Below, piece by piece: positions 34,371 to 57,806 of a stretch of 64,000 nucleotides of DNA. Source of the DNA: Pseudodesulfovibrio profundus. Its GTDB lineage: Bacteria > Desulfobacterota > Desulfovibrionia > Desulfovibrionales > Desulfovibrionaceae. The position numbers and the translations under genes are program-made. The notes beneath the pieces are model-generated. The model worked only from the letters and a program-made list of their open reading frames with translations. It had not been told where the DNA came from and made no database searches. The stretch lies in NCBI RefSeq assembly GCF_900217235.1, contig NZ_LT907975.1, positions 1,897,001 through 1,961,000 of the forward strand, written 5' to 3'. The number at the start of each line of letters is the position of its first letter. Position 1 is the first letter of the stretch.

Positions 34371-34774
34371 ATGTCTGAAGCACCATTAAAGGTTATTATC
34401 TCTGACAAAGAAGAGATCAAACGATCTGAGACTCTTGATATATTCATCCCATTCGTCAAAGGATTATCCCATTCATTTGTCATTGCCCTCAACTCGCCTT
34501 GGGGGACAGGCAAAACAACTTTTGTCAATCAGTGCATCTCAGAGCTAGGCGAAGATTACCCTTCAATCTATTACAATGCTTGGAAGGCAGATTACAGCAA
34601 AGACCCATTTATAGATTTCTGTGCTGAGATCATAGACCTCGAAGATAGCGATTCAACAACATCTTCAGACGAGAAACAGAACTTACTCAGCCACGCCAAA
34701 AGAATTGGTAAAAACATTTGGGACAAAAAGGCTGACATATCCTTATCTCTAATTTCAAAAATCGGCACTAAAGA
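34371..34774 (+). pseudogene. KAP-family P-loop NTPase, 3'-truncated by an insertion element
   Basis: The frame has AAGGAGACAAG before ATG 34371. It reads as a KAP/AAA-like NTPase N-terminus: VIALNSPWGTGKTTFVNQ is the Walker A region (about residues 37-54), followed by YYNAWKADYSKDPFIDF, a typical KAP motif after the first helix. After about 135 residues it enters the 1268-bp element at 34775; typical KAP proteins are 400-900 residues. No continuation is found beyond the element. KAP NTPases occur in antiviral systems (such as Qat) and in membrane-associated islands; which applies here is unknown. The DNA is AT-rich compared with its left neighbours. Confidence 0.78.
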
Positions 34775-36042
34775 GAGACCTCTGCGCATCCCCTTTTCGC
34801 GTCCGTGCCTTGCGCTCCGCACCCAATTTGATGTTCTGACCGCACCCCAGCTTGGGCTCATTCCCGGCCTTTTCCTGCCATTTCTGGCCGAAATGCCGGA
34901 TTTTGGACGCACCTCTCCCTTCAGGCTCGCGCCAGTCGAACAGCTTTTTTCAAATTGAACGCCATGGCGAGGATGTGGAACTCTCCCTCCACCTTCTCAC
35001 GACCCACGTATCGGGACCGAAAGAATGCGTAGCCACGTTTGAGTGTGCCGAAGGCCCGCTCGACTATTTGCCGAATGCTGCTGATGTCACGGTTGCGGGT
35101 CTTTTCGAAGTCTGTCAGCCTGCCGCCACGAGGCGTCTTGTCCATGGTTCCGTCCTCCAAATCGCGATCAAACAGAATGTCCCGGTTCTTCCCGCTGCAA
35201 TAGCCCTTGTCCGCATAAACCCGTGCGCCGGGATCAAGGCCGACGCCATTCACGAGCCGCTCGAATTCGCCCGTGTCCGAATGGTTCGCGGGAGTGATGT
35301 GACCACAGAGCAGAAACCCGTCTCGACTGTCCGTCGCGGCATGGAGCTTGTAGCCGTAATAGGCCCGATTTCTCTTGCGGAGCCAGGCCGCCTCCTCGTC
35401 ATCCGAATAGCTGACCCGGCAGTCCACCGGCCCATCCTGTTCTTCGGCGTCCTCGGAACGGTCCTCAGGCATCACGTCGATAACCTTGCGCGGCCGCCGC
35501 TGCGACTCGACTACCGAGGCGTCCACCACGGCTCCCTCACGGACAAGAAGCCCTTGTCCTTCAAGCTGGCGGTTAAGCATGTCGAGCAAGGAGTCCAGCA
35601 CCTTCAGGCGGATCAAACCGTTACGGAAACGGCATATGGTGGTCTCGTCCGGCACGTCGTCCTCGATGGAAAAACCGGTAAATCTGACAAAGGAGAGCCG
35701 GTCGAGCAGCGCCTGCTCCACGCCCGGATCACTCAGGTTGTACCAACGCTGCAAGAGCAGAATCTTGAACATCGCCAGAGGCGGATAGGCGGGATTGCCC
35801 ACGGCGTTGGCCTTGCGCCTGATCTTCTTGCACAGAAAGGCGTTGATGGGCTGCCAGTCGATGAGTTCGTTGATCTCATCCAGAAATGTGGTCTTGGTTC
35901 TGCGGTGCCCCAGGAAGTAATCACCCAACCGAGGTCCTTTCTGCCGAATAGCCATGCCTTCCTCCTTTGGATGGAGAAATAATAGCATAATAAATCAAAT
36001 AGTTAAAGAGTAAAAGTGTGGGGTTTGCCGTGCAGAGGTCTC
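34775..36042 (-). mobile_element. 1268-bp IS5-family element, copy A
   Basis: The element runs between GAGACCTCTGC and its complement GCAGAGGTCTC, and a copy of equal length lies at 56514-57781 in the same orientation. The only difference I found between them is G at 36023 versus A at 57762. The transposase is on the minus strand. No target duplication is seen around either copy, which suggests later rearrangement. It truncates a KAP gene on the left and a membrane-protein gene on the right. Confidence 0.9.
34921..35955 (-). CDS. IS5-family transposase, copy A
   Basis: This 344-residue DDE transposase starts at ATG 35955 after AAAGGAGGAAGGC. It has the N-terminal DUF772-like region (NPAYPPLAMFKILLLQRWYNLSD, and SFVRFTGFSIEDDVPDETTICRFR) and the catalytic triad: Asp in GAVVDASVV, Asp in VYADKGYCS and Glu in RQIVERAFGTLKRGY. 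The whole domain is present, so the enzyme is probably functional. The long plus-strand frame over the same bases (34852-35982) is a shadow. Confidence 0.93.
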   Translation of the reverse strand: MAIRQKGPRLGDYFLGHRRTKTTFLDEINELIDWQPINAFLCKKIRRKANAVGNPAYPPLAMFKILLLQRWYNLSDPGVEQALLDRLSFVRFTGFSIEDDVPDETTICRFRNGLIRLKVLDSLLDMLNRQLEGQGLLVREGAVVDASVVESQRRPRKVIDVMPEDRSEDAEEQDGPVDCRVSYSDDEEAAWLRKRNRAYYGYKLHAATDSRDGFLLCGHITPANHSDTGEFERLVNGVGLDPGARVYADKGYCSGKNRDILFDRDLEDGTMDKTPRGGRLTDFEKTRNRDISSIRQIVERAFGTLKRGYAFFRSRYVGREKVEGEFHILAMAFNLKKAVRLARA

Positions 36043-36317
36043 GAAATATATGATCCAACACCGATGGCACCTACAACCAAAGCAAGCATCCCTGTAACCG
36101 TAGTCACAAAATCTCTATATAACCCAAAAGAGTCTTTTGCAGTATCAGCCATCACTGGCGCAACAGGTGCAATCCCAATTATTTCATGCAAAATGCTGCA
36201 AGATTGTCCGCGCAAAGTAACCATAAGAAGGTATACGAATCCCAATACAGAGAGGGCGGCTATCACCCAGCCTAAAAATCTCACGATCGCAACGATACAA
36301 TTCCATATAAATCTCAC
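36003..36317 (-). CDS. Small membrane protein, 3'-truncated by the IS (last gene of the peptide operon)
   Basis: GTG 36317 overlaps the E1 enzyme's stop codon (GTGA) and has GGGAGGAACC before it, so it belongs to the operon. It encodes two hydrophobic helices: FIWNCIVAIVRFLGWVIAAL with LGFVYLLMVTL, and TTVTGMLALVVGAIGVG. Native sequence ends at SYIS where the element begins at 36042; the last 13 residues come from the IS. The missing part might have held a transport or protease function. No family is recognised. Confidence 0.65.
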   Translation of the reverse strand: MRFIWNCIVAIVRFLGWVIAALSVLGFVYLLMVTLRGQSCSILHEIIGIAPVAPVMADTAKDSFGLYRDFVTTVTGMLALVVGAIGVGSYISRPLHGKPHTFTL

Positions 36318-37435
36318 GATAGGTTCCTCCCGCTGCAATATGGACACTCATCCCACACGCAATACTCTTCCAGCACCAACTTCTTCGTAAAAAAATTGAA
36401 TTCGCCGCGTTTGCCGATCATGGTCGGCTTCAGGTTCGGCAGCCCCAGCAACAGCTTCAGACACTCGTTGGCCACAAAAGATGCGGAGATCGCCGCAAGC
36501 GGGGCCAGGTTGCCGAGGTTGCGGTGCTCCTTGACGATGCGCTCCGCACCTTCGATCTCAGCCACCTTAAGCTGGTCCATGCCGTGCGAGATGCAGTGGA
36601 AGCACGGCGTCTTGCCGGGGATGATCGTCGGCCCCACCAGGCTGAGGTGCATGTTGTAGCCGCCGGCAATGATGTAGGGCAGATCGAGCGCAAAGGCCGC
36701 CTCATTGATGATCGCCGAGGTGTGGCCCACCGAAGGAAAATCCGCGCAGTTGATCAGGACCGTCTGCGACCTCAAGCCGTCCTTCAACAACGCGATCAGC
36801 CGTTCCGAACTCTCCAGCTTCTCTTCAATGGCCCGGACCGTGTAATACTCCTCCCGGCGCGAGTTGAGCATCCCTTCGAGAGCCAGGGTCTTGAGGCTGC
36901 CCACATCTCCCTTGGTGAACAGGGAGCGGTTCAGGTTGTGCGGCTTCACCACGTCGTCATCGAGCAACGTGAAGTGCTTGATCCCCATCTGGGCCAGTAG
37001 GGAGACGACCCAGCTCCCCACGCCCCCGGCCCCGATCACCACCGCCTGGCTTTCCGTTAACCGCTGCCAGGCGGATTCCACATCGTAATACGGGACATAG
37101 GAACCGATGAACGTCTTCACCCTCCGGAACGGGTCGGATTCGCGGGACGCCACTACCTGCACATCTTCCAGGGCGCAACGCTCGATCAGGACGTCGAAAA
37201 GCCGCTCCAGCCCGACACACTGCCGGTCAGTGAGGGCGTAGGTTCCCGCCAGCTTGTCATACGGCAGGCTCCCATCCAGATTGGAAAGAATCCTGACGTA
37301 ATCCTCATCGGCAAAGGCCAAGTTGAAACTCTGCCGGATGTCCGAGACAAAAAACTGGTACGTCCTCTCCTGCGGCATGGGCACGAACGAAACCGATGGG
37401 CGGAGGCGGAAGCGCTCCTCGCTGTAGCGGCTCAT
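36314..37435 (-). CDS. E1/ThiF-like adenylating enzyme with PqqD/RRE-like N-terminus (second enzyme)
   Basis: The 373-residue protein begins at ATG 37435, overlapping the upstream stop (ATGA). Residues about 1-95 look like a winged-helix RiPP-recognition element of the PqqD type (RLRPSVSFVP, then ILSNLDGSLPYDKLAG and LFDVLIERCALED). Residues about 125-360 are an E1-like Rossmann domain with VVIGAGGVGSW, DDDVVKPHNLNRS (the ATP-binding D...N..R), and a structural zinc set: TPCFHC and CPYC. Such enzymes activate a carboxylate as acyl-adenylate, as MccB, ThiF and TOMM ThiF-like proteins do. Together with the Cys-rich peptide it suggests a ribosomally made modified peptide. Confidence 0.82.
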   Translation of the reverse strand: MSRYSEERFRLRPSVSFVPMPQERTYQFFVSDIRQSFNLAFADEDYVRILSNLDGSLPYDKLAGTYALTDRQCVGLERLFDVLIERCALEDVQVVASRESDPFRRVKTFIGSYVPYYDVESAWQRLTESQAVVIGAGGVGSWVVSLLAQMGIKHFTLLDDDVVKPHNLNRSLFTKGDVGSLKTLALEGMLNSRREEYYTVRAIEEKLESSERLIALLKDGLRSQTVLINCADFPSVGHTSAIINEAAFALDLPYIIAGGYNMHLSLVGPTIIPGKTPCFHCISHGMDQLKVAEIEGAERIVKEHRNLGNLAPLAAISASFVANECLKLLLGLPNLKPTMIGKRGEFNFFTKKLVLEEYCVWDECPYCSGRNLS

Positions 37436-38556
37436 TTGCGCCCCTCCCCGCAGGACTGGCACTCCTTGTCCCTTTCGACGACGAAGGTGTCGAGGCTGTA
37501 GTCATGGAAAAGGAATTCGCCCCGCCCGCCGGGAGCCGCCTTTCGGTCTTCCGGGTTCATGAAGTAGCCCAGGATATCCAGCGCTGCCGTGGAGGCGCTG
37601 AACGTGGACAGGCCGCCCAACCCGCCGAACCAGCCTTCGCGCTCCTTGACCGGATGGGGAATGGGCTTCCAATCCTTCAGGCTCTCATGAAAAAACGTGG
37701 CGTAGCAATCCGCGCACGGCGTCACATGGGGGATCAGCAACTCGCCCAGGGAGGCGAGATGGGCATCGAACCCTCCGGCCGCCAACACGGGTATGTCATG
37801 CTGCAGGGCATACCGCGAAAGCTTGATATTGGTGTAGCCGACGTAGGGTTGATCGGTGGTGTTGACGATGAGCGAGGTTCCCCGGACCAACTCGTCGAGA
37901 TCGGTGTGCGTCCTGAGGGTGGCATTGCGCAACTCGACTTGGGGTTCAAAGGCAAAATCCTCAACCAGCGCCTTAGCGGCCTCCGTCTTGGGGATGCCGA
38001 CCTGTGTGGCGATCCGATACGGCGTCCGGGCAATGTCGCTCTCCTCGACATCGACATAGTCGATGAGGGTGAAACGCCTGAACCCCATCATGCTGAGTTG
38101 CTGCAGGATGCCGCTGCCCATGGCCCCCAGGCCGAAAACCGTTATCCGGGCGTCGAAAATCCGTTTTTGGACTTCATGAGCCTTCTGCGGCGACTTGAGG
38201 ATATCCAGCAGGAAATACAACTGGCGCTTGTATTGTTCCACATACTCGACCGGCAACAGGTCGGTTTCGAGCGGATCGGACAAGGTCACGATTCCTTCAG
38301 TATCAAGAAAGGAGAGAAAGGCCTCGGTTTCTTCGTCCATGACCAGCCCGGAATGGCTCAGGGAATCCGTCAAGGGCTGCGGCTTGGACAATTCCTTGAG
38401 CAGGGCCGCAAAGGCGGGTTTACACTCAATGCGCAACCGCCTCCGGTTGGACAAAAAAAGGAAGAGAACTGGGCAGATCCCTTCCTTTTGAGGATAAAGA
38501 AAAACCTCCACCCCGTCTCGCAGTTCCGGGGCGGAGGCTTCCGACAGCTGTGTCAT
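37432..38556 (-). CDS. E1/ThiF-like enzyme with RRE-like N-terminus (first enzyme)
   Basis: The 374-residue protein starts 14 bp after the peptide gene at ATG 38556. Its N-terminal about 100 residues have a beta-hairpin and winged-helix character (VLFLFLSNRRRLRIECKP, then AFLSFLDTEGIVTL), like the leader-binding domain of E1-type RiPP enzymes. The Rossmann part reads ITVFGLGAMGSGI, with LIDYVDVEESDIARTPYR, where the usual N of the ATP-binding motif is not conserved, so adenylation may be weakened. Zinc-type Cys pairs remain: TPCADC and CQSC. It may be the leader-binding partner of the more canonical second enzyme. It is tightly coupled to that gene by ATGA overlap. Confidence 0.8.
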   Translation of the reverse strand: MTQLSEASAPELRDGVEVFLYPQKEGICPVLFLFLSNRRRLRIECKPAFAALLKELSKPQPLTDSLSHSGLVMDEETEAFLSFLDTEGIVTLSDPLETDLLPVEYVEQYKRQLYFLLDILKSPQKAHEVQKRIFDARITVFGLGAMGSGILQQLSMMGFRRFTLIDYVDVEESDIARTPYRIATQVGIPKTEAAKALVEDFAFEPQVELRNATLRTHTDLDELVRGTSLIVNTTDQPYVGYTNIKLSRYALQHDIPVLAAGGFDAHLASLGELLIPHVTPCADCYATFFHESLKDWKPIPHPVKEREGWFGGLGGLSTFSASTAALDILGYFMNPEDRKAAPGGRGEFLFHDYSLDTFVVERDKECQSCGEGRK

Positions 38557-38570
38557 TGGGGCTTCGCCTG

Positions 38571-38783
38571 CTAATATTGAACCTGACCGCCCTTGACCGC
38601 CAGATACTGTTCCCAGGCCTCGGTGTTCTCCACGAAATTCGCATCCGCAGAGCAGGTCCTGGTGCAGCAATCGGAGCGGCTGCCGGAACAGGAGGCCGTG
38701 TAGGCGACGCTGTCCATGCCGTCTTCGTCGGAAACGATGGCAAACCCGAATTTTTCCATGTGGTCATCATTCTTCTTCTGCAT
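38571..38783 (-). CDS. Cys-rich candidate precursor peptide, 70 residues
   Basis: ATG 38783 follows TTGAGGACCGAT. The N-terminal part (residues about 1-30, MQKKNDDHMEKFGF and AIVSDEDGMDSVAYTA) is acidic and leader-like. The next stretch is rich in Cys and Ser/Thr: SCSGSRSDCCTRTC holds four Cys in 14 residues. The C-terminus (AWEQYLAVKGGQVQY) contains a GG five residues from the end. No signal peptide or zinc knuckle of a known family is seen. Being first in an operon of two RRE-bearing E1 enzymes makes a RiPP precursor the best reading; the modification is unknown. Confidence 0.68.
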   Translation of the reverse strand: MQKKNDDHMEKFGFAIVSDEDGMDSVAYTASCSGSRSDCCTRTCSADANFVENTEAWEQYLAVKGGQVQY

Positions 38784-38914: not shown

Positions 38915-39646
38915 CTATTTCATGGGGTCAAAATTATTCAAATGATATGTTATGTCCTTTCCGTTATTCAATAAACACTTGCTGCCATCATACTGCACCA
39001 AAAACGAATGTTGCTTGCCGGATGCGACAACACCAGTTGCAATAAGTTTTGCGATCTCTCCACTTTGAAATACTATATAGTCGCTTCTCCACGCCCCGAC
39101 GATGAGTCGCCTAGTAATAAATACATAAAATGTTGTTGAGGCATTATTCGATTTGTAGCTCTTTGCTTGGATTGTGAATTGAAACTTTCCGTGTTTGTTG
39201 CAATTTGCCGTCTTCACCTGGATATGAAAATACTTGTTTCCCTTGGATGCAACGACGTCAATTCCTTCATCAACCGTCATGATTGAAGCGTTGTACCCTC
39301 GAAACAGGAGTTCGCTTAACAACCCATACTCTCCAGCCTTACCGGTATATAAATTCGAAACCTGTGGAAATTTTTCTGATGCTGTCTTTTTCCGTTTCTG
39401 CTTTGCTTTGTACACGCCGGAGAGGTGCCCGCCTTTGCCATTGGGAACTTTGGAAATCTTGGCTTTTCTTTTGGCGCTACGAATATGATTGCTGATGGAT
39501 TGGCCGACCTTCTTCCCCAAATCCTCCAAATCCAGGCCACCATAAACAGCGGGATACCTTGCGACGAGAATTTGGGCAATTTCGCGAAGGTTCAACTTCC
39601 GTTTCTCTACGGACAACACTTCGATACAATGGTCTAACCTATTCAC
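38915..39646 (-). CDS. Winged-helix (HARE-HTH-like) protein with PD-(D/E)XK nuclease-like domain
   Basis: The 243-residue protein has an N-terminal helical part (residues about 1-90: VEKRKLNLREIAQIL...GLDLEDLGKKVGQSISNHI) resembling the HARE-HTH domain found with restriction enzymes. Residues about 95-215 then read YTGKAGEYGLLSELLFRG, VDEGIDVVASKG and FHIQVKTA. The order G-E-(x)n-D-(x)n-QVK is the nuclease signature of PD-(D/E)XK folds. The gene is AT-rich, lies between the peptide operon and a helicase-nuclease gene on the opposite strand, and probably belongs to a defence or restriction set. ATG 39646 lacks a strong ribosome site. Confidence 0.7.
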   Translation of the reverse strand: MNRLDHCIEVLSVEKRKLNLREIAQILVARYPAVYGGLDLEDLGKKVGQSISNHIRSAKRKAKISKVPNGKGGHLSGVYKAKQKRKKTASEKFPQVSNLYTGKAGEYGLLSELLFRGYNASIMTVDEGIDVVASKGNKYFHIQVKTANCNKHGKFQFTIQAKSYKSNNASTTFYVFITRRLIVGAWRSDYIVFQSGEIAKLIATGVVASGKQHSFLVQYDGSKCLLNNGKDITYHLNNFDPMK

Positions 39647-39804: not shown

Positions 39805-42800
39805 ATGAATACGGACAGCACGCTCACTTTGGTAATATTCGCAGCCGAATGCATCAATTTTGCCTCCGCGCAAAATTCGGTTCCCATCCTGCGAAGCATC
39901 CAAATCCGCAACACCTCGGATGTGCCTGTTGAGAATATCACCCTGGAGCTCACTCCTCACCCTCCGTTTTGCCGGAACAAGACTTGGACCATAGACAGAA
40001 TACATGCCAATAGCGACATATCCCTCTCCGACTTGAGGTTGGAATACGACTTCGCTTTTTTCGATGGGCTCAACGAAGCTGAGCGTGGACAACTGACCTT
40101 CCGGCTTCGCCGGAACGAGGCGCCCTTGGGCGAACAGATTCTGCCCATCAGGCTTCTGGCGCGAGACGAATGGGGCGGCTTGGGCGAGATGGCCAGCATT
40201 CTCGCCGCGTTTGTCTCGCCAAACGATCCCGTTGTCGCAAAAGTTTGCAAACGGGCAAGTATACTCCTGGAAAAGGGTGGTCACAACGGAGCGCTCAACG
40301 GGTACCAGGATCAAGACCCCAAACGGGCTTACATGCTTGCTGCCGGCATATGGTCGGCCATCACCGAAAAGGCACTGAGCTATGCACAGCCTCCCGCCTC
40401 TTTTGAATCCAGAGGGCAGAAGGTCAGAGGGCCGCGGCGGATACACGACGAGGGGTTGGTCACCTGCCTCGACAGCTCGCTGCTATTTGCTGGTGCGCTT
40501 GAAGCGGCGGGGCTCAACCCTGTCATTATCTTTACCAAGGGACACGCCTTTACAGGCGTCTGGCTTGCGGACAAGACCCTGCCCTCCATTGAAGAACCGG
40601 ATGTCGTCGAACTCCGCAAAGCCATCGCGGCACGGGAATTCGTGGCCTTCGAAACAACCTTGGTAACGAATCGCCCCGTAGCGGACTTCACCCAAGCGGT
40701 TCAAAACGCCAGGGTGAAACTCAACGAAAAAAACGAAGTCGACTTCGAGCGTGCCGTGGACATCCGTAGGGCTCGTTTTGCAGGTGTCACTCCCCTTGCT
40801 GCCCATCATGTTGAGGAATCATCAAAAGAAGCCGCAGAGGATGTTGCCCCTGCGGCTCTCCCGCCGGAACCGGATTTCGGCATGCTGCCGGGCGAAGTCA
40901 TCGACGAAACTCCCCAGACACCTCAGGACAGAATTGACCGCTGGCAACGAAAGCTTCTCGATCTGACTCTTCGGAATCGCCTCCTCAACTTCAAGGACAC
41001 CAAGCAGACCATCCCGGTCTTGTGTCCTGATCTTCCGGGACTGGAGGACATGCTGGCTGACGGGAAACGCCTTCGAGTCATTTCTTTGAAGGATGAGAAC
41101 CCTGTCGGCGCGAGAGACCCGGAGCTGTATCAACAGCAATACGGAAAGGACATCCATGAAGAGTTTGCCAAGGACGCCCTGGAGCGCAAGCAACTCTGCA
41201 TCGACCTTTCAGGAACCGAGATGCGCAACCGGCTGATCACGCTCTTCCGCAAGGCCAACAGCGAGCTTGCCGAAGGCGGTGCCAATACCCTGTATATGGC
41301 GGTGGGCTTCCTCAGGTGGAAGAAAACGGAAAACGACCCGACGCTGTATCGGGCCCCCATCCTCCTGCTCCCGGTTTCCCTGAAACGTCGTTCGGCGAAA
41401 TCGGATTTTTATCTTGCACACCATGAGGACGACATCCGCATCAACTCGACCCTCCTTCAATTCTTGCAACGGGATTTCGGACTCAGGGTTCCGTCCTTGG
41501 AAGGAGAGCTCCCAAAAGACGAATCAGGTATCGACGTCCCTTTGGTCTTCTCGCTCATGCGCCAGGCCGTGCGGGACATCCCAGGATTCGAGGTTGTTGA
41601 GGAGGCGGCGTTTTCCACGTTTTCCTTTGCCAAGTATCTCATGTGGAAGGATCTGGTCGACCGAACCGAGGACCTGAGAAACAACCGGCTTGTCAAACAT
41701 CTCATCGACTCGCCCGAAACTCCTTTTGTCCAAGCGTGTGACGGCCCCTGTCTTCCCCTGCCCAACGAGATCGATAAAAAGATCCCCCTGCATGACCTGC
41801 TCACTCCGCTTCCCGCCGACAGCTCCCAACTGGCTGCCGTTGTTGCGGCCATGAACGGGCACGACTTCGTCGTCATCGGCCCTCCCGGCACAGGAAAAAG
41901 CCAGACAATCGCCAACATGATCGCCCAGTGCCTATCCGTAGGGAAACGCGTCCTTTTTGTGGCGGAGAAATCAGCGGCGCTGGACGTGGGTTACCGCCGA
42001 TTAAAGGCATACGGGCTTGGCGACGTCTGCCTTGAACTCCACTCCAATAAATCCGACAGGAAACGTGTTCTGGCCCAACTGGGAGCCGCTTGGGAACGTA
42101 GCGAGACATACGCTGCAGATTCATGGACCCGTGCAACCAGCAGACTGGAAGAGGCAAGGGACGAGCTCAACAGGTATGTGGAACAACTTCACGCACCCGG
42201 CAGCCATGGCTTCAGTGTTTTCCAAGCCATCGGCATTGTCACCGGACATCGCCCACGGTTCACTCTCACGTTCGACAATCTCAATGCGCACGATCCGGGC
42301 ATGTTCGCCAGGCTTGAGGAGACCGCAATACGTGCGGACAGGATTCACACCATTGTCCACGACTGCAAGGGATTCGACAGCATCGACGCTGAGGACTGGA
42401 CGTTTTCTTGGCAAAACAGCCTGATTGAACACGCCGAATCAATTTTGGCCACTATTCCCCAACTCAAGGAAACAGCCGACGCCTTGGTGCATAAGATAGG
42501 GCTACCGGACGCTGAAGAAACAAATCTTGAGCGCATAAAGCAACTCAATCGATTCCATGAAGTCTGCCGGATCGCTTCCGGGCAGGACTACAGCAAGGTC
42601 GTAGATGCGGAATTGGGCCGTCTGGAAGAAGCTGCGGCATCTCTCGACGCCGCCATCACCGTCATTCGCCAGGCCCGGTCGAACCTTACGGCCAGCTATG
42701 AAAACGCCGAACTGAAACGCATCCCCGTGGACGACATCGACCGCCAATGGCGAGAGGCAAATGCCAAAATGTGGCCATTTTCGGCCTTCGAGCGCAGACG

Positions 42801-43503
42801 AATCGGCAAACTTCTCCAGAGCTATGCGGCGGACGGCAAGGTGGATGTCGCTTCGGAAATAGTTCCCCTGCGGGAAATCCAAAACAACATTGAAACCATC
42901 GACCAGAGCGAGTTGGCAGGGCTTCCGGTATTTCAAAACGAAGAGACTGACCATTCCAACGTTTTGGAATACCTGAAAGGTGCTGAAGAGTTGCAACAAG
43001 CGCTTGCCGATGTTCGGCGTCATGCCTCTGATGCCCAGCGATTTGGAGCCGCATTGGACTCCCTGCTCAACCACGGGCAGCAACAACCTGACGCCGAACG
43101 CATGGCAACGGCATTTCACTCAGCGCTCAGGGAATTCAAATCGGCCAGTGAAGCCTACGCCGTCCACTCCAAGGGAAAGCTGCATATCCAGTCGATAGAG
43201 TCCCTTGAAACGGACCTGCGACATTTGATCGCCCACAAGACTCAACTTGCGGATTGGGTCCGTTGGGTGGCGGTCAGAGAGGAAGCACGAGCACTGGGTC
43301 TTGATCCATTTCTGAAGGCACTGCGAACCGGGCAAATCGAAAACGCCAAGTTGGATTTCCGGGTGGCATATTTCCATTGGTGGCTGCCTCTCGTCATAGA
43401 CGCCAGTTCTGAGCTTCGCGGCTTCCGCCACTGGTCCCATGAAGATTTGATACGAGAGTTTCGAAAGAGGGACGAAGCCGTCCAAAAAATGGCCACGGAC
43501 TAG
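39805..43503 (+). CDS. DUF4011-type SF1 helicase, N-terminal part (ends at an in-frame TAG)
   Basis: The 1232-residue product carries an N-terminal beta-rich/transglutaminase-like region (about 1-330). A DUF4011-like segment follows (RIDRWQRKLLDLTLRNRLLNFKD, near residue 373-395; here RLLNFKDTKQT), then helicase domain 1A with Walker A VIGPPGTGKSQTI (about 690-702). It stops at TAG 43501-43503. The next 2.2 kb continue in the same frame with the Walker B and later helicase motifs. The conceptual protein would be about 1967 residues, so this fragment alone cannot hydrolyse ATP normally. GAGGCAGTGAC precedes the ATG. Proteins of this layout are known in phage-defence islands. Confidence 0.82.
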   Translation: MNTDSTLTLVIFAAECINFASAQNSVPILRSIQIRNTSDVPVENITLELTPHPPFCRNKTWTIDRIHANSDISLSDLRLEYDFAFFDGLNEAERGQLTFRLRRNEAPLGEQILPIRLLARDEWGGLGEMASILAAFVSPNDPVVAKVCKRASILLEKGGHNGALNGYQDQDPKRAYMLAAGIWSAITEKALSYAQPPASFESRGQKVRGPRRIHDEGLVTCLDSSLLFAGALEAAGLNPVIIFTKGHAFTGVWLADKTLPSIEEPDVVELRKAIAAREFVAFETTLVTNRPVADFTQAVQNARVKLNEKNEVDFERAVDIRRARFAGVTPLAAHHVEESSKEAAEDVAPAALPPEPDFGMLPGEVIDETPQTPQDRIDRWQRKLLDLTLRNRLLNFKDTKQTIPVLCPDLPGLEDMLADGKRLRVISLKDENPVGARDPELYQQQYGKDIHEEFAKDALERKQLCIDLSGTEMRNRLITLFRKANSELAEGGANTLYMAVGFLRWKKTENDPTLYRAPILLLPVSLKRRSAKSDFYLAHHEDDIRINSTLLQFLQRDFGLRVPSLEGELPKDESGIDVPLVFSLMRQAVRDIPGFEVVEEAAFSTFSFAKYLMWKDLVDRTEDLRNNRLVKHLIDSPETPFVQACDGPCLPLPNEIDKKIPLHDLLTPLPADSSQLAAVVAAMNGHDFVVIGPPGTGKSQTIANMIAQCLSVGKRVLFVAEKSAALDVGYRRLKAYGLGDVCLELHSNKSDRKRVLAQLGAAWERSETYAADSWTRATSRLEEARDELNRYVEQLHAPGSHGFSVFQAIGIVTGHRPRFTLTFDNLNAHDPGMFARLEETAIRADRIHTIVHDCKGFDSIDAEDWTFSWQNSLIEHAESILATIPQLKETADALVHKIGLPDAEETNLERIKQLNRFHEVCRIASGQDYSKVVDAELGRLEEAAASLDAAITVIRQARSNLTASYENAELKRIPVDDIDRQWREANAKMWPFSAFERRRIGKLLQSYAADGKVDVASEIVPLREIQNNIETIDQSELAGLPVFQNEETDHSNVLEYLKGAEELQQALADVRRHASDAQRFGAALDSLLNHGQQQPDAERMATAFHSALREFKSASEAYAVHSKGKLHIQSIESLETDLRHLIAHKTQLADWVRWVAVREEARALGLDPFLKALRTGQIENAKLDFRVAYFHWWLPLVIDASSELRGFRHWSHEDLIREFRKRDEAVQKMATD

Positions 43504-43506
43504 GTA

Positions 43507-45708
43507 TTGATTAAGACCGCGCATGGACTTCCCACCAGGGATAGCGTCCCTCGCCGCTCGGAGTTGGGGGCACTGAGACACCAACTAACTTTGCAACGGC
43601 CGAGCCTCTCCATCCGCAGATTGCTCGAAAGCACCCCCACCGTTTTCACCAAGCTGGCTCCGTGTATGCTTATGTCGCCGCTATCAGTGGCTCAATACCT
43701 TCCCGCTAACCAGACACAATTCGATGTGGTTATTTTCGACGAAGCCTCTCAAATCACGACATGGGATGCGGTCGGGGCTATTGCCAGGGCCGAACAATCC
43801 ATCATCGTGGGCGACCCGAAACAGTTACCCCCCACCAACTTTTTCGGCCGCACCGACGACGAGGACGAGGAAGACCTCGCCGAATATGAAAAAGACCTGC
43901 CCAGTATTCTCGAAGAAGCCAGTGCGGCGGGCCTACCGGAAGTCCAGTTGAACTGGCATTATCGCAGCCGAGATGAATCGTTGATCTCGTTCTCGAACCA
44001 TCACTATTATGGTGGCAGGCTCATCACCTTCCCTTCTCCCAAAACCGAGTCGGACGCCCTTGTCTTTCACAAAAACGACGGCGCGTATGCGAGAGGCACG
44101 GGCCGTACCAACATCACGGAAGCGAGAGAAATCGTCCAGTTTGCCAGGTCACGACTGGAACACTGGCTGCAACTCCCCAAGGAATCCAGACCGACCCTTG
44201 GCGTCATCACGTTCAACATCCAGCAACAGGAATTGATCCTCAACCTTTTCGACGAGGCCCGGCGTTCCAATCCGAAGCTTGAATGGTTCTTCAGCGAAAA
44301 TCGGGAAGAACCGGTCATCGTCAAAAACCTGGAAAATATCCAAGGGGACGAGCGGGACATCATGTGCTTCTCCATTACCTTCGGGCGGGACAATGGGGGC
44401 AAAATGTCCATGTTCTTCGGGGCACTCAACCGAGATGGTGGAGAACGACGACTGAACGTCGCCGTGACGCGCGCCCGATCCGAAATGCATGTCTTCTCAT
44501 CAATTGAGGCCGATGACATCGACACATCGCGGACCAAGGCCCTTGGCGTGGCCCATCTCAAGACCTTTCTTGACTACGCCAAGCGCGGCCCGATAGCGCT
44601 CCCGTGCGGTGCGGGTAGGGGTGATTCCGTTGGTGATGCGGAGAGTCCGTTTGAAGAAGCCGTCATGTCCGCTCTTCAGGACAAGGGCTGGGAGATACGG
44701 CCTCAAATTGGTGTTTCCGATTACCGAATCGACCTGGGCGTGGTCCATCCCGATCACGCAGGGGCCTACCTGGCGGGCGTTGAGTGTGACGGCGCAACCT
44801 ACCACAGTTCCGCAAGCGCACGGGATCGAGACAAAATCCGTGAGGCGGTCCTGTGCAACCTCGGGTGGAACATCATCCGCATATGGTCAACAGACTGGTT
44901 CATGAATCCTGCGGAAGCGCTCAAACGGGTTCATACAGAACTGGAGGAGCTTCTCGAAAACTCCCGCCAAAAGGAGAAAGAAATAGAAGCCCAGGCCAAA
45001 GAACAAGCCGAGCAAAATGAAGAATGGAGAGAGGTGCCTGAAGAGCTTGTTGCGGAAACAATAAAATCGCAACCGGAAGAAGAGCATGTTTTGCAGCCTC
45101 GGACTTCAAGACAAGTCAAGCTTCCCAATGTAAGCAATGAACTTGAGCTTCCGTATTCTGATCCGGAACCACCAGATCAAAGCTCAAAATATGCCAAATC
45201 AACCGGTGTGGATGACTCGGCGGCATCAAGTAACGTCTCATCCATCGAATGGCCCGTCCAACCGGATGCGGATCGTTTCTTCGATGCCGGGTACACACCG
45301 ATTCTCTGTCAACTGATCGACTATCTGGTAGAGATAGAGGGTCCCATCGAGGCCGACCGACTTGCCCGGACCATTTGCAAAGCCCATGGCTGGAAAAGGA
45401 CTGGGGCCAATATCAGGCAGCAAATCGATACCTGTCTCGGAAAAAATGAACTCCGCAAGGAAGGTAAGGCGACTTTTATCTGGTCACCTGGAACTTATCA
45501 GGAAAAGGTCCCTTATAGGCCCATCGAAAGCAGAGCCGTCACAGACATCTCGCGCCACGAACTATTCGGGCTTATAGCTGACCATCCTGAACTTGTGATG
45601 AGCAAAGACCGAGTCCGGGACTTGGCGGATATCCTGGGGGTTAAGCGGCTCTCGCAGAAGGTTAATGAGTACCTCGGCAATTGCCTCTCAACGTATTTCA
45701 TGCGCTAG
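43507..45708 (+). CDS. DUF4011-type helicase, C-terminal part with Vsr-like nuclease and DUF3320-like domains
   Basis: This part, 733 residues if it starts at TTG 43507, continues the upstream frame after one TAG. It holds Walker B FDEASQI (Asp 78), VGDPKQLPPTNFF, later SF1 motifs (NWHYRSRDESLISFSN, GDERDIMCFS, RRLNVAVTRAR), and a Vsr/DUF559-like nuclease (about 380-470: SPFEEAVMSALQDKGW, GVECDGATYHSS, NIIRIWSTDW). A coiled charged linker follows, then a DUF3320-like C-terminus (YLVEIEGPIEADRLARTICKAHGWKR). TTG has no ribosome site, so independent expression is doubtful. Single-gene helicase-nucleases of this type have been reported as antiphage genes (I recall the name Hhe). Confidence 0.8.
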   Translation: MIKTAHGLPTRDSVPRRSELGALRHQLTLQRPSLSIRRLLESTPTVFTKLAPCMLMSPLSVAQYLPANQTQFDVVIFDEASQITTWDAVGAIARAEQSIIVGDPKQLPPTNFFGRTDDEDEEDLAEYEKDLPSILEEASAAGLPEVQLNWHYRSRDESLISFSNHHYYGGRLITFPSPKTESDALVFHKNDGAYARGTGRTNITEAREIVQFARSRLEHWLQLPKESRPTLGVITFNIQQQELILNLFDEARRSNPKLEWFFSENREEPVIVKNLENIQGDERDIMCFSITFGRDNGGKMSMFFGALNRDGGERRLNVAVTRARSEMHVFSSIEADDIDTSRTKALGVAHLKTFLDYAKRGPIALPCGAGRGDSVGDAESPFEEAVMSALQDKGWEIRPQIGVSDYRIDLGVVHPDHAGAYLAGVECDGATYHSSASARDRDKIREAVLCNLGWNIIRIWSTDWFMNPAEALKRVHTELEELLENSRQKEKEIEAQAKEQAEQNEEWREVPEELVAETIKSQPEEEHVLQPRTSRQVKLPNVSNELELPYSDPEPPDQSSKYAKSTGVDDSAASSNVSSIEWPVQPDADRFFDAGYTPILCQLIDYLVEIEGPIEADRLARTICKAHGWKRTGANIRQQIDTCLGKNELRKEGKATFIWSPGTYQEKVPYRPIESRAVTDISRHELFGLIADHPELVMSKDRVRDLADILGVKRLSQKVNEYLGNCLSTYFMR

Positions 45709-56218: not shown

Positions 56219-56513
56219 TTTATCAGCACAGACTCGTCACCGGGGCATTCGGGTTGGTTTAATCGTCCGGGAAGCACCGATCTGCCCCACCTCCTATTTG
56301 ACGGCGGTGAACGTACACCCAACAGCTTTGGTCTGGAAGACTTGGCTATCGGGCTGATGGGGCCTCTGCTATCGTGGACGCAAAAGATAGAGAGCGTCGG
56401 CTCACTCTCGTTCGGGGTCAAGTCATAACAAACTGCTAAACGAGTACGGGCGATATGAGCGCTGGTGAACGGATAGTTCAGACAATTACCGGACTGCAAT
56501 GTCACCACAAGAT
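56219..56513. other. Non-coding stretch between the methyltransferase operon and IS copy B
   Basis: I see no convincing gene, ribosome site or terminator here. A minus-strand frame over 56071-56565 overlaps the methyltransferase 3' end and looks like a shadow. Confidence 0.4.
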
Positions 56514-57781
56514 GAGACCTCTGCGCATCCCCTTTTCGCGTCCGTGCCTTGCGCTCCGCACCCAATTTGATGTTCTGACCGCACCCCAGCTTGGGCTCAT
56601 TCCCGGCCTTTTCCTGCCATTTCTGGCCGAAATGCCGGATTTTGGACGCACCTCTCCCTTCAGGCTCGCGCCAGTCGAACAGCTTTTTTCAAATTGAACG
56701 CCATGGCGAGGATGTGGAACTCTCCCTCCACCTTCTCACGACCCACGTATCGGGACCGAAAGAATGCGTAGCCACGTTTGAGTGTGCCGAAGGCCCGCTC
56801 GACTATTTGCCGAATGCTGCTGATGTCACGGTTGCGGGTCTTTTCGAAGTCTGTCAGCCTGCCGCCACGAGGCGTCTTGTCCATGGTTCCGTCCTCCAAA
56901 TCGCGATCAAACAGAATGTCCCGGTTCTTCCCGCTGCAATAGCCCTTGTCCGCATAAACCCGTGCGCCGGGATCAAGGCCGACGCCATTCACGAGCCGCT
57001 CGAATTCGCCCGTGTCCGAATGGTTCGCGGGAGTGATGTGACCACAGAGCAGAAACCCGTCTCGACTGTCCGTCGCGGCATGGAGCTTGTAGCCGTAATA
57101 GGCCCGATTTCTCTTGCGGAGCCAGGCCGCCTCCTCGTCATCCGAATAGCTGACCCGGCAGTCCACCGGCCCATCCTGTTCTTCGGCGTCCTCGGAACGG
57201 TCCTCAGGCATCACGTCGATAACCTTGCGCGGCCGCCGCTGCGACTCGACTACCGAGGCGTCCACCACGGCTCCCTCACGGACAAGAAGCCCTTGTCCTT
57301 CAAGCTGGCGGTTAAGCATGTCGAGCAAGGAGTCCAGCACCTTCAGGCGGATCAAACCGTTACGGAAACGGCATATGGTGGTCTCGTCCGGCACGTCGTC
57401 CTCGATGGAAAAACCGGTAAATCTGACAAAGGAGAGCCGGTCGAGCAGCGCCTGCTCCACGCCCGGATCACTCAGGTTGTACCAACGCTGCAAGAGCAGA
57501 ATCTTGAACATCGCCAGAGGCGGATAGGCGGGATTGCCCACGGCGTTGGCCTTGCGCCTGATCTTCTTGCACAGAAAGGCGTTGATGGGCTGCCAGTCGA
57601 TGAGTTCGTTGATCTCATCCAGAAATGTGGTCTTGGTTCTGCGGTGCCCCAGGAAGTAATCACCCAACCGAGGTCCTTTCTGCCGAATAGCCATGCCTTC
57701 CTCCTTTGGATGGAGAAATAATAGCATAATAAATCAAATAGTTAAAGAGTAAAAGTGTGGGATTTGCCGTGCAGAGGTCTC
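56514..57781 (-). mobile_element. 1268-bp IS5-family element, copy B
   Basis: This has the same length and ends (GAGACCTCTGC...GCAGAGGTCTC) as the element at 34775-36042, in the same orientation, 21.7 kb apart. The only difference noted is one base at 57762. Flanks (AAGAT left, GGTAT right) show no duplication. The copies form long direct repeats around 20.5 kb of accessory DNA. Confidence 0.9.
56660..57694 (-). CDS. IS5-family transposase, copy B
   Basis: The 344-residue DDE transposase is the same as copy A (Asp in VVDASVV, Asp in YADKGYC, Glu in VERAFGTLKRGY), with the same ATG after AAAGGAGGAAGGC. Identity of the coding part suggests recent duplication or conversion. Confidence 0.93.
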   Translation of the reverse strand: MAIRQKGPRLGDYFLGHRRTKTTFLDEINELIDWQPINAFLCKKIRRKANAVGNPAYPPLAMFKILLLQRWYNLSDPGVEQALLDRLSFVRFTGFSIEDDVPDETTICRFRNGLIRLKVLDSLLDMLNRQLEGQGLLVREGAVVDASVVESQRRPRKVIDVMPEDRSEDAEEQDGPVDCRVSYSDDEEAAWLRKRNRAYYGYKLHAATDSRDGFLLCGHITPANHSDTGEFERLVNGVGLDPGARVYADKGYCSGKNRDILFDRDLEDGTMDKTPRGGRLTDFEKTRNRDISSIRQIVERAFGTLKRGYAFFRSRYVGREKVEGEFHILAMAFNLKKAVRLARA

Positions 57782-57806
57782 GGTATAGGATTGTGCGGGG
57801 ACGAGC

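Follow-up and report, generated by a model that had tools for sequence, protein, structure and literature searches.

A probable mobile RiPP-like cassette with twin E1-like enzymes in Pseudodesulfovibrio profundus, possibly a chemical antiphage defence

The closest described counterparts of the locus reported here are the ThiF-type pathways for ribosomally synthesized and post-translationally modified peptides (RiPPs). MccB alone acts on a 7-residue peptide (part of PMC6495379), and sections of a 2025 review of ThiF-type RiPPs (PMC12250964) describe systems with one E1 enzyme, treated as sources of antibiotics or possible signals, together with ATP-site arginine and lysine residues in PaaA and EnfB and a Glu-Cys thiolactone made by GrcB. 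Links between RiPPs and phage have been proposed in general terms in passages of PMC11118758 and PMC12715929, and anthracycline-type chemical phage defence is covered in a passage of PMC13250531. We analyzed a 64,000-nucleotide stretch of the Pseudodesulfovibrio profundus genome (contig NZ_LT907975.1, positions 1,897,001 to 1,961,000; hereafter the window), in which a first-pass annotation had proposed a dedicated peptide-plus-E1 modification system. The linked peptide and twin MccB/PaaA-type E1 enzymes described below largely bear out that proposal, and we lean toward reading the locus as a mobile RiPP-like peptide-modification cassette, possibly for DNA-directed chemical antiphage defence.

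The 70-residue Cys-rich peptide and the two E1-like enzymes, here called E1-A (374 residues) and E1-B (373 residues), lie where they had been annotated, all on the minus strand (Table 1). The four Cys residues of the peptide (positions 32, 39, 40 and 44) fall within 13 residues rather than the 14 first counted. Overlap by a few bases was found at the E1-A/E1-B junction (4 nucleotides) and not elsewhere in the array as had been described: a 14-nucleotide gap separates the peptide from E1-A, and E1-B overlaps the membrane-protein stub that follows by 34 nucleotides, provided that the stub's GTG start is correct. A GAGG resembling a ribosome-binding site precedes the peptide's ATG, and a promoter and terminator scan 5' of the peptide returned signals no more than expected by chance.

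Of 348 genomes covered by protein searches of the order and then the class, 7 contain E1-A and the same 7 contain E1-B; all are from one family (Desulfovibrionaceae), and the window's own genome is one of them. When E1-B was searched by tblastn against 72,556 plasmid records, 171 matched, of which the best 15 were considered and 9 annotated; twin-E1 loci among these 15 were found on Acinetobacter johnsonii pXBB1-8 and Moraxella osloensis pNP7-2, giving nine loci in all. The peptide gene lies immediately 5' of E1-A and E1-B at each of the nine, and the three genes form a fixed unit at all loci found. Homologous loci lacking the peptide, named beforehand by the first-pass annotation as evidence that would speak against it, did not appear. 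Among plasmids, the Acinetobacter peptide matched only itself and the Moraxella peptide. The gene order is PD-(D/E)XK-like, peptide, E1-A, E1-B, tetratricopeptide repeat (TPR), UvrA-like, with the outer genes present at some loci: the PD-(D/E)XK-like gene in five of nine (the window and four same-genus loci), the full TPR gene in six, and the UvrA-like ATPase in six, including four same-genus relatives of the window. Every locus except the window, which is cut by an insertion sequence (IS), carries the UvrA-like ATPase, the variable TPR protein or both.

No relative was confirmed among viral contigs (queries P0002, A2, A3 and A1), and a distant search mode gave no match in E. coli genomes. Thirteen phage records matched query P0008, none covering 80% of the query, and the annotated ones among the ten listed are ThiF/MoeB. 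An E1-A profile matched 79 genomes of a 395-genome phylum sample, its own included (best elsewhere 1.5e-23); the matching open reading frames (ORFs) outside its own genome are 219-402 residues long, no match starts before profile position 40, and taken as a group they read as probable ordinary ThiF/MoeB-like proteins. A ThiF enzyme of Nonomuraea gerenzanensis (L034 7998-9068), with about 27% identity to E1-B, possibly belongs to a separate ThiF-type peptide locus.

Of all parts of the cassette, the peptide is the best conserved. The nine sequences are 63-70 residues long, end in QY, and share the invariant motifs CS..RS.CCTR.C, AW..YL and a C-terminal G..QY, with invariant positions that include F14, C32, S33, R36, S37, C39, C40, T41, R42, C44, A56, W57, Y60, L61, G66, Q69 and Y70. 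For pairs with computable synonymous divergence, the ratio of nonsynonymous to synonymous substitution (dN/dS) ranges over 0.02-0.06 in the peptide and 0.07-0.16 in the E1s; the peptide's ratio and its presence at all nine loci argue that the peptide ORF is more than a chance reading frame. Identity between the window and Acinetobacter is 45% for the peptide, 29% for E1-A and 33% for E1-B, and the UvrA-like proteins of G283 (one of the family genomes) and Acinetobacter share 33%. In our judgement, an antibiotic RiPP would not usually have a precursor that is more conserved than its enzymes. Such conservation, together with four Cys and no exporter in view, would suit a housekeeping-like modified peptide that is no weapon, such as a metal or redox carrier or an intracellular signal; some RiPPs are cofactors, for example PQQ. 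The patchy distribution (7 of 348 genomes plus mobilizable plasmids), a hypervariable TPR partner and the defence neighbours described below make this reading quite improbable.

Both enzymes carry a Pfam ThiF domain with two CxxC pairs, as had been noted, and the four zinc Cys are invariant in all nine aligned sequences of each, window included. MccB was the best PDB profile match of both (3h5n, 6om4; 7.9e-23 for E1-A and 1e-33 for E1-B), with PaaA at 6.7e-22 and 4.1e-18, respectively; PaaA was also the best single-sequence match of E1-A, over PaaA residues 45-229 (PDB 5ff5). The two are paralogous (hhalign probability 100 over 343 columns). The first-pass annotation held that one enzyme had lost its ATP motif, as in an activator/leader-binding pair. 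E1-A does have DIAR in place of the NLNR kept in E1-B, but D166, R177, K190 and D235 are invariant in all nine E1-A sequences, as are D159, N167, R170, K182 and D232 in E1-B, so the loss was not borne out and the proposed pair is not indicated. By motif, the Arg and Lys residues match those described at the ATP sites of PaaA and EnfB, an assignment that comes from alignment rather than structure. Since the catalytic residues are invariant in both enzymes, a degenerate second E1 was rejected. By sequence both belong to the MccB/PaaA type of adenylyltransferase, with a complete set of catalytic residues, and both appear to be active. In a tree of eight of the nine loci and seven outside enzymes, E1-A formed one group across both bacterial lineages (support 100/99) and E1-B did likewise with weaker support (84/83), which suggests that the E1 pair predates the lineage split.

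Some E1 pairs work as heterodimers, NAE1-UBA3 being an example, and a pair of this kind could instead activate the peptide C-terminus and join it to target proteins in a ubiquitin-like conjugation system. The invariant G..QY ending would fit, as would the PADLOC E1-E2 defence models that the two enzymes hit across the ThiF core (at best 5.5e-19 and 7e-11). We consider conjugation highly improbable, given that at full length both enzymes match the peptide-modifying MccB and PaaA best, ahead of E1s for ubiquitin-like proteins, that the Cys-rich core is unlike such proteins, and that no E2, JAB or ubiquitin-like partner was found among the operon proteins and the selected neighbours scanned or annotated, where a very small unannotated one could escape. 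A conserved ubiquitin-like partner was another outcome that the first-pass annotation had set against itself, and none was seen among the operon genes. It saw no YcaO, radical SAM or LanM partner, and the operons, with flanks scanned in part, showed no YcaO, radical SAM or lanthionine enzyme and neither an exporter nor a protease.

The UvrA-like protein matches TIGR00630 at 6.6e-124, yet under the family cut-off, and its PDB matches include 7sh1, which we take to be Ecm16. All three cluster copies tested contain the DNA-binding domain PF17755 and lack UvrA_inter (PF17760), which the canonical UvrA of the genome carries. This Ecm16-like architecture, a UvrA DNA-binding domain without the UvrB-interaction domain, is the basis for our guess that the product is DNA-directed, and we name DNA as the target only tentatively. 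In relatives, genes for DUF7946/DUF7947 and DUF169 lie 3' of the UvrA-like gene (L017 11323-12225; L018 1616-2506).

The array was said to end in a small membrane protein. A membrane ORF is indeed last, but it corresponds to the N-terminal ~100 residues of a TPR membrane protein, which in relatives runs to 359-401 residues. On the far side of the IS a KAP NTPase begins on the opposite strand, indicating that the original continuation of the operon is gone. The suggestion that the IS removed genes kept in relatives held for the rest of the TPR protein and for the UvrA-like ATPase (in four same-genus relatives), and not for an exporter or protease. A search of the window's own genome with the G283 TPR protein found only the stub, although a very divergent copy could escape. 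The cassette in this strain is probably impaired, given the truncated TPR gene and the failure to find a UvrA gene of the cluster type. A second IS copy at 56509-57782 is 99.8% identical to the first; near-identical copies ~20 kb apart and the KAP NTPase fragment at the IS suggest an IS-mediated rearrangement.

Where complete, the TPR gene is hypervariable. In 200-base rows inside genes, DNA identity between G283 and G301 is 97-100% in E1-A, 87-96% in E1-B, 42-64% in the TPR gene and 86-100% in the UvrA-like gene, and the drop over the TPR gene recurs when G283 is compared with the two remaining same-genus loci. Between the four same-genus loci the TPR gene's nonsynonymous divergence (dN) spans 0.57-0.73, and against G199 it is 0.34-0.70, compared with 0.04-0.06 and 0.12-0.14 for E1-B. 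This pattern looks like allele swapping between fixed neighbours and suggests that the TPR protein meets a diverse partner from outside. Because the peptide hardly varies, the TPR protein is presumably not tracking it.

Seven of the nine loci adjoin PADLOC genes or BREX, that is, known or candidate phage-defence genes, in about five distinct contexts. A PDC-S37/Hhe-like gene adjoins the cassette in the window, G283 and G296; Ppl (7.4e-145) is found at G290, MkoC-like and SngA-like genes at G301, type I and type IV restriction genes at G199, and BREX-1, by annotation, at the Acinetobacter locus. A control took five regions elsewhere in four of the genomes and scanned the two longest ORFs of each; none of the ten matched defence genes at E 1e-20. 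The locus could also be a bacteriocin cluster, making an antibacterial RiPP, whose place in mobile or defence islands is incidental, with the UvrA-like or TPR protein as producer immunity. PaaA makes the antibiotic pantocin A (sections of PMC12250964), microcin C is an antibiotic, clusters for antibiotics include UvrA-like proteins that confer self-resistance (sections of PMC10192343), and lanthipeptide clusters too lie near defence genes (a passage of PMC12715929). A bacteriocin nevertheless seems unlikely to us, as the operons, with flanks scanned in part, show no exporter or protease and a nearly invariant peptide beside a hypervariable putative immunity protein is the reverse of a toxin-immunity race.

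The cassette may instead encode a ribosomal-peptide chemical immune system, in which twin E1s make an intracellular, DNA-directed antiphage agent, the UvrA-like protein protects host DNA, and the TPR protein contributes specificity or the sensing of infection. The E1s, probably as a heterodimer, would bind the peptide at an N-terminal F-x-[VI]-[VI]-[SN] stretch and adenylate carboxylates, in all likelihood that of the invariant C-terminal Tyr and/or a conserved acidic side chain. Attack by Cys thiols of the CS..RS.CCTR.C core could then close one or two rings of the thiolactone or a related type, for which GrcB offers precedent. Since the operons showed neither an exporter nor a protease, the compact Arg/Cys product would remain in the cell and act on DNA; an Ecm16-like UvrA-like ATPase would free host DNA from it, and the TPR membrane protein would sense or tolerate a variable outside factor. 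Antiphage defence is the likeliest role, although taken alone it falls just short of an even call in our estimate; the ring chemistry is as tentative as the DNA target, and the scheme in its entirety is more doubtful than either.

Several observations weigh against this interpretation. We infer the chemistry, target and role of the cassette. The PqqD/RRE-like N-terminus that the first-pass annotation saw in both enzymes is a candidate assignment, weakest for E1-B: the N-terminal domains alone matched no RRE or PqqD entry in Pfam, NCBIfam or PDB. By hhalign against the N-termini of seven MccB/PaaA-like enzymes, that of E1-B reached 1.2%; E1-A reached 93.3%, part of the match being the linker before the adenylation domain, and taken one by one it exceeded 50% with three of the seven and gave 0.2% with the E. 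coli enzyme. The two N-termini alone gave 1.6% against each other, unrelated controls gave at most 0.7% against the same seven, and AlphaFold models from two-sequence alignments (pLDDT 38 for E1-B, 30 for E1-A) were discarded. The TPR gene is absent from both plasmid loci. No UvrA-like gene was found in the window genome, G086 or G199 (66% complete), and the window's own genome, searched with a cluster-type UvrA, returned only canonical UvrA and general ABC proteins; with the ATPase absent at three of nine loci, and the window's peptide and E1s intact, it cannot be indispensable for immunity at every locus. G086 has no defence neighbour (a leuB-like gene, by our own reading, and one downstream gene were scanned), and the Moraxella locus lies among IS and toxin-antitoxin genes with no defence genes (by annotation, with one neighbour scanned). 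The control is small, at ten ORFs, and the defence contexts are not all independent, as PDC-S37 is common to three same-genus loci.

Upstream of the peptide, the PD-(D/E)XK-like protein is a possible accessory of the cassette (Table 1); within the genus its gene diverges more than the E1 genes do. The DUF4011 gene of G283 (L017), like that of the window, is split in two ORFs, near the N-terminal end.

Table 1. Positions of the cassette and adjoining features (window coordinates unless a locus is named)
Feature	Coordinates	Strand	Remarks
Cys-rich precursor-like peptide, 70 aa	38571..38783	(-)	directly 5' of twin E1 genes
E1-A, 374 aa, ThiF/MccB/PaaA-like putative adenylyltransferase	37432..38556	(-)	Pfam ThiF 1.1e-24
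E1-B, 373 aa, ThiF/MccB-like putative adenylyltransferase, paralogue of E1-A	36314..37435	(-)	Pfam ThiF 4.1e-35
N-terminal stub of hypervariable TPR membrane protein	36003..36347	(-)	native sequence to near 36044, then IS
IS copy ending operon	34771..36043	(-)	DDE transposase ORF 34921-35988
PD-(D/E)XK-like protein, upstream of cassette	38915..39646	(-)	Pfam PDDEXK_5 3.2e-4, under family cut-off
PDC-S37/Hhe-like DUF4011 candidate defence gene	39805..45708	(+)	two ORFs: 39805-43503, 43507-45708
KAP NTPase fragment (PDC-S20)	34371-34770	opposite to cassette	abuts IS
Hypervariable TPR genes	L017 7504-8709; L018 5393-6499; L019 7201-8313; L020 8066-9220		between near-identical flanking genes

Judged by title and abstract, no paper in the open-access PubMed Central (PMC) literature describing this gene combination was found. 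A word search of the ThiF-RiPP review PMC12250964 returned no hit for 'two ThiF', 'tandem', 'phage' or 'UvrA', and sections of the RRE discovery paper PMC12710340 contain nothing on this combination. What comes together here across two bacterial lineages is an old pair of E1 enzymes, a peptide that varies less than they do, an Ecm16-like UvrA and a defence-island location. If the proposed function is correct, the cassette would be a gene-encoded, transferable counterpart of anthracycline-type chemical phage defence, and its E1s possibly a new paired peptide-cyclising enzyme.

Among known systems, MccB shares the E1 fold with CxxC zinc pairs. The microcin C peptide is short and ends in Asn, whereas two enzymes here accompany a Cys-rich peptide of 63-70 residues ending in QY; in length and ending, the peptide does not fit the microcin C family. 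For PaaA, sections of PMC12250964 describe use of leader and follower by one enzyme on a Glu-Glu core, with a follower that tolerates mutation, while the C-terminus of the cassette peptide is invariant. GrcB, EnfB and IndF perform ATP-dependent activation of peptide carboxylates, to which we liken the cassette E1s; GrcB and EnfB are single ThiF enzymes from Gram-positive clusters (sections of PMC12250964), and IndF likewise, whereas the cassette has two. The UvrA-like ATPases Ecm16 and DrrC have a DNA-binding insertion domain without the UvrB-interaction domain, as do the cluster copies, but in actinomycetes, according to sections of PMC10192343, they protect from non-ribosomal peptides or anthracyclines, and the cassette UvrA is linked to a ribosomal peptide. 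CBASS, Bil and 6A-type defence loci also contain E1 domains, and the cassette E1s match PADLOC E1-E2 and NCBIfam 6A-MBL models; these matches cover the ThiF core only, far under the NCBIfam cut-off (E1-B 54.7 of 320 bits), and the cassette has no visible E2, protease or ubiquitin-like partner. The cassette is close to, yet distinct from, known ThiF-type RiPP systems: a twin-E1 variant whose most likely role is in defence.

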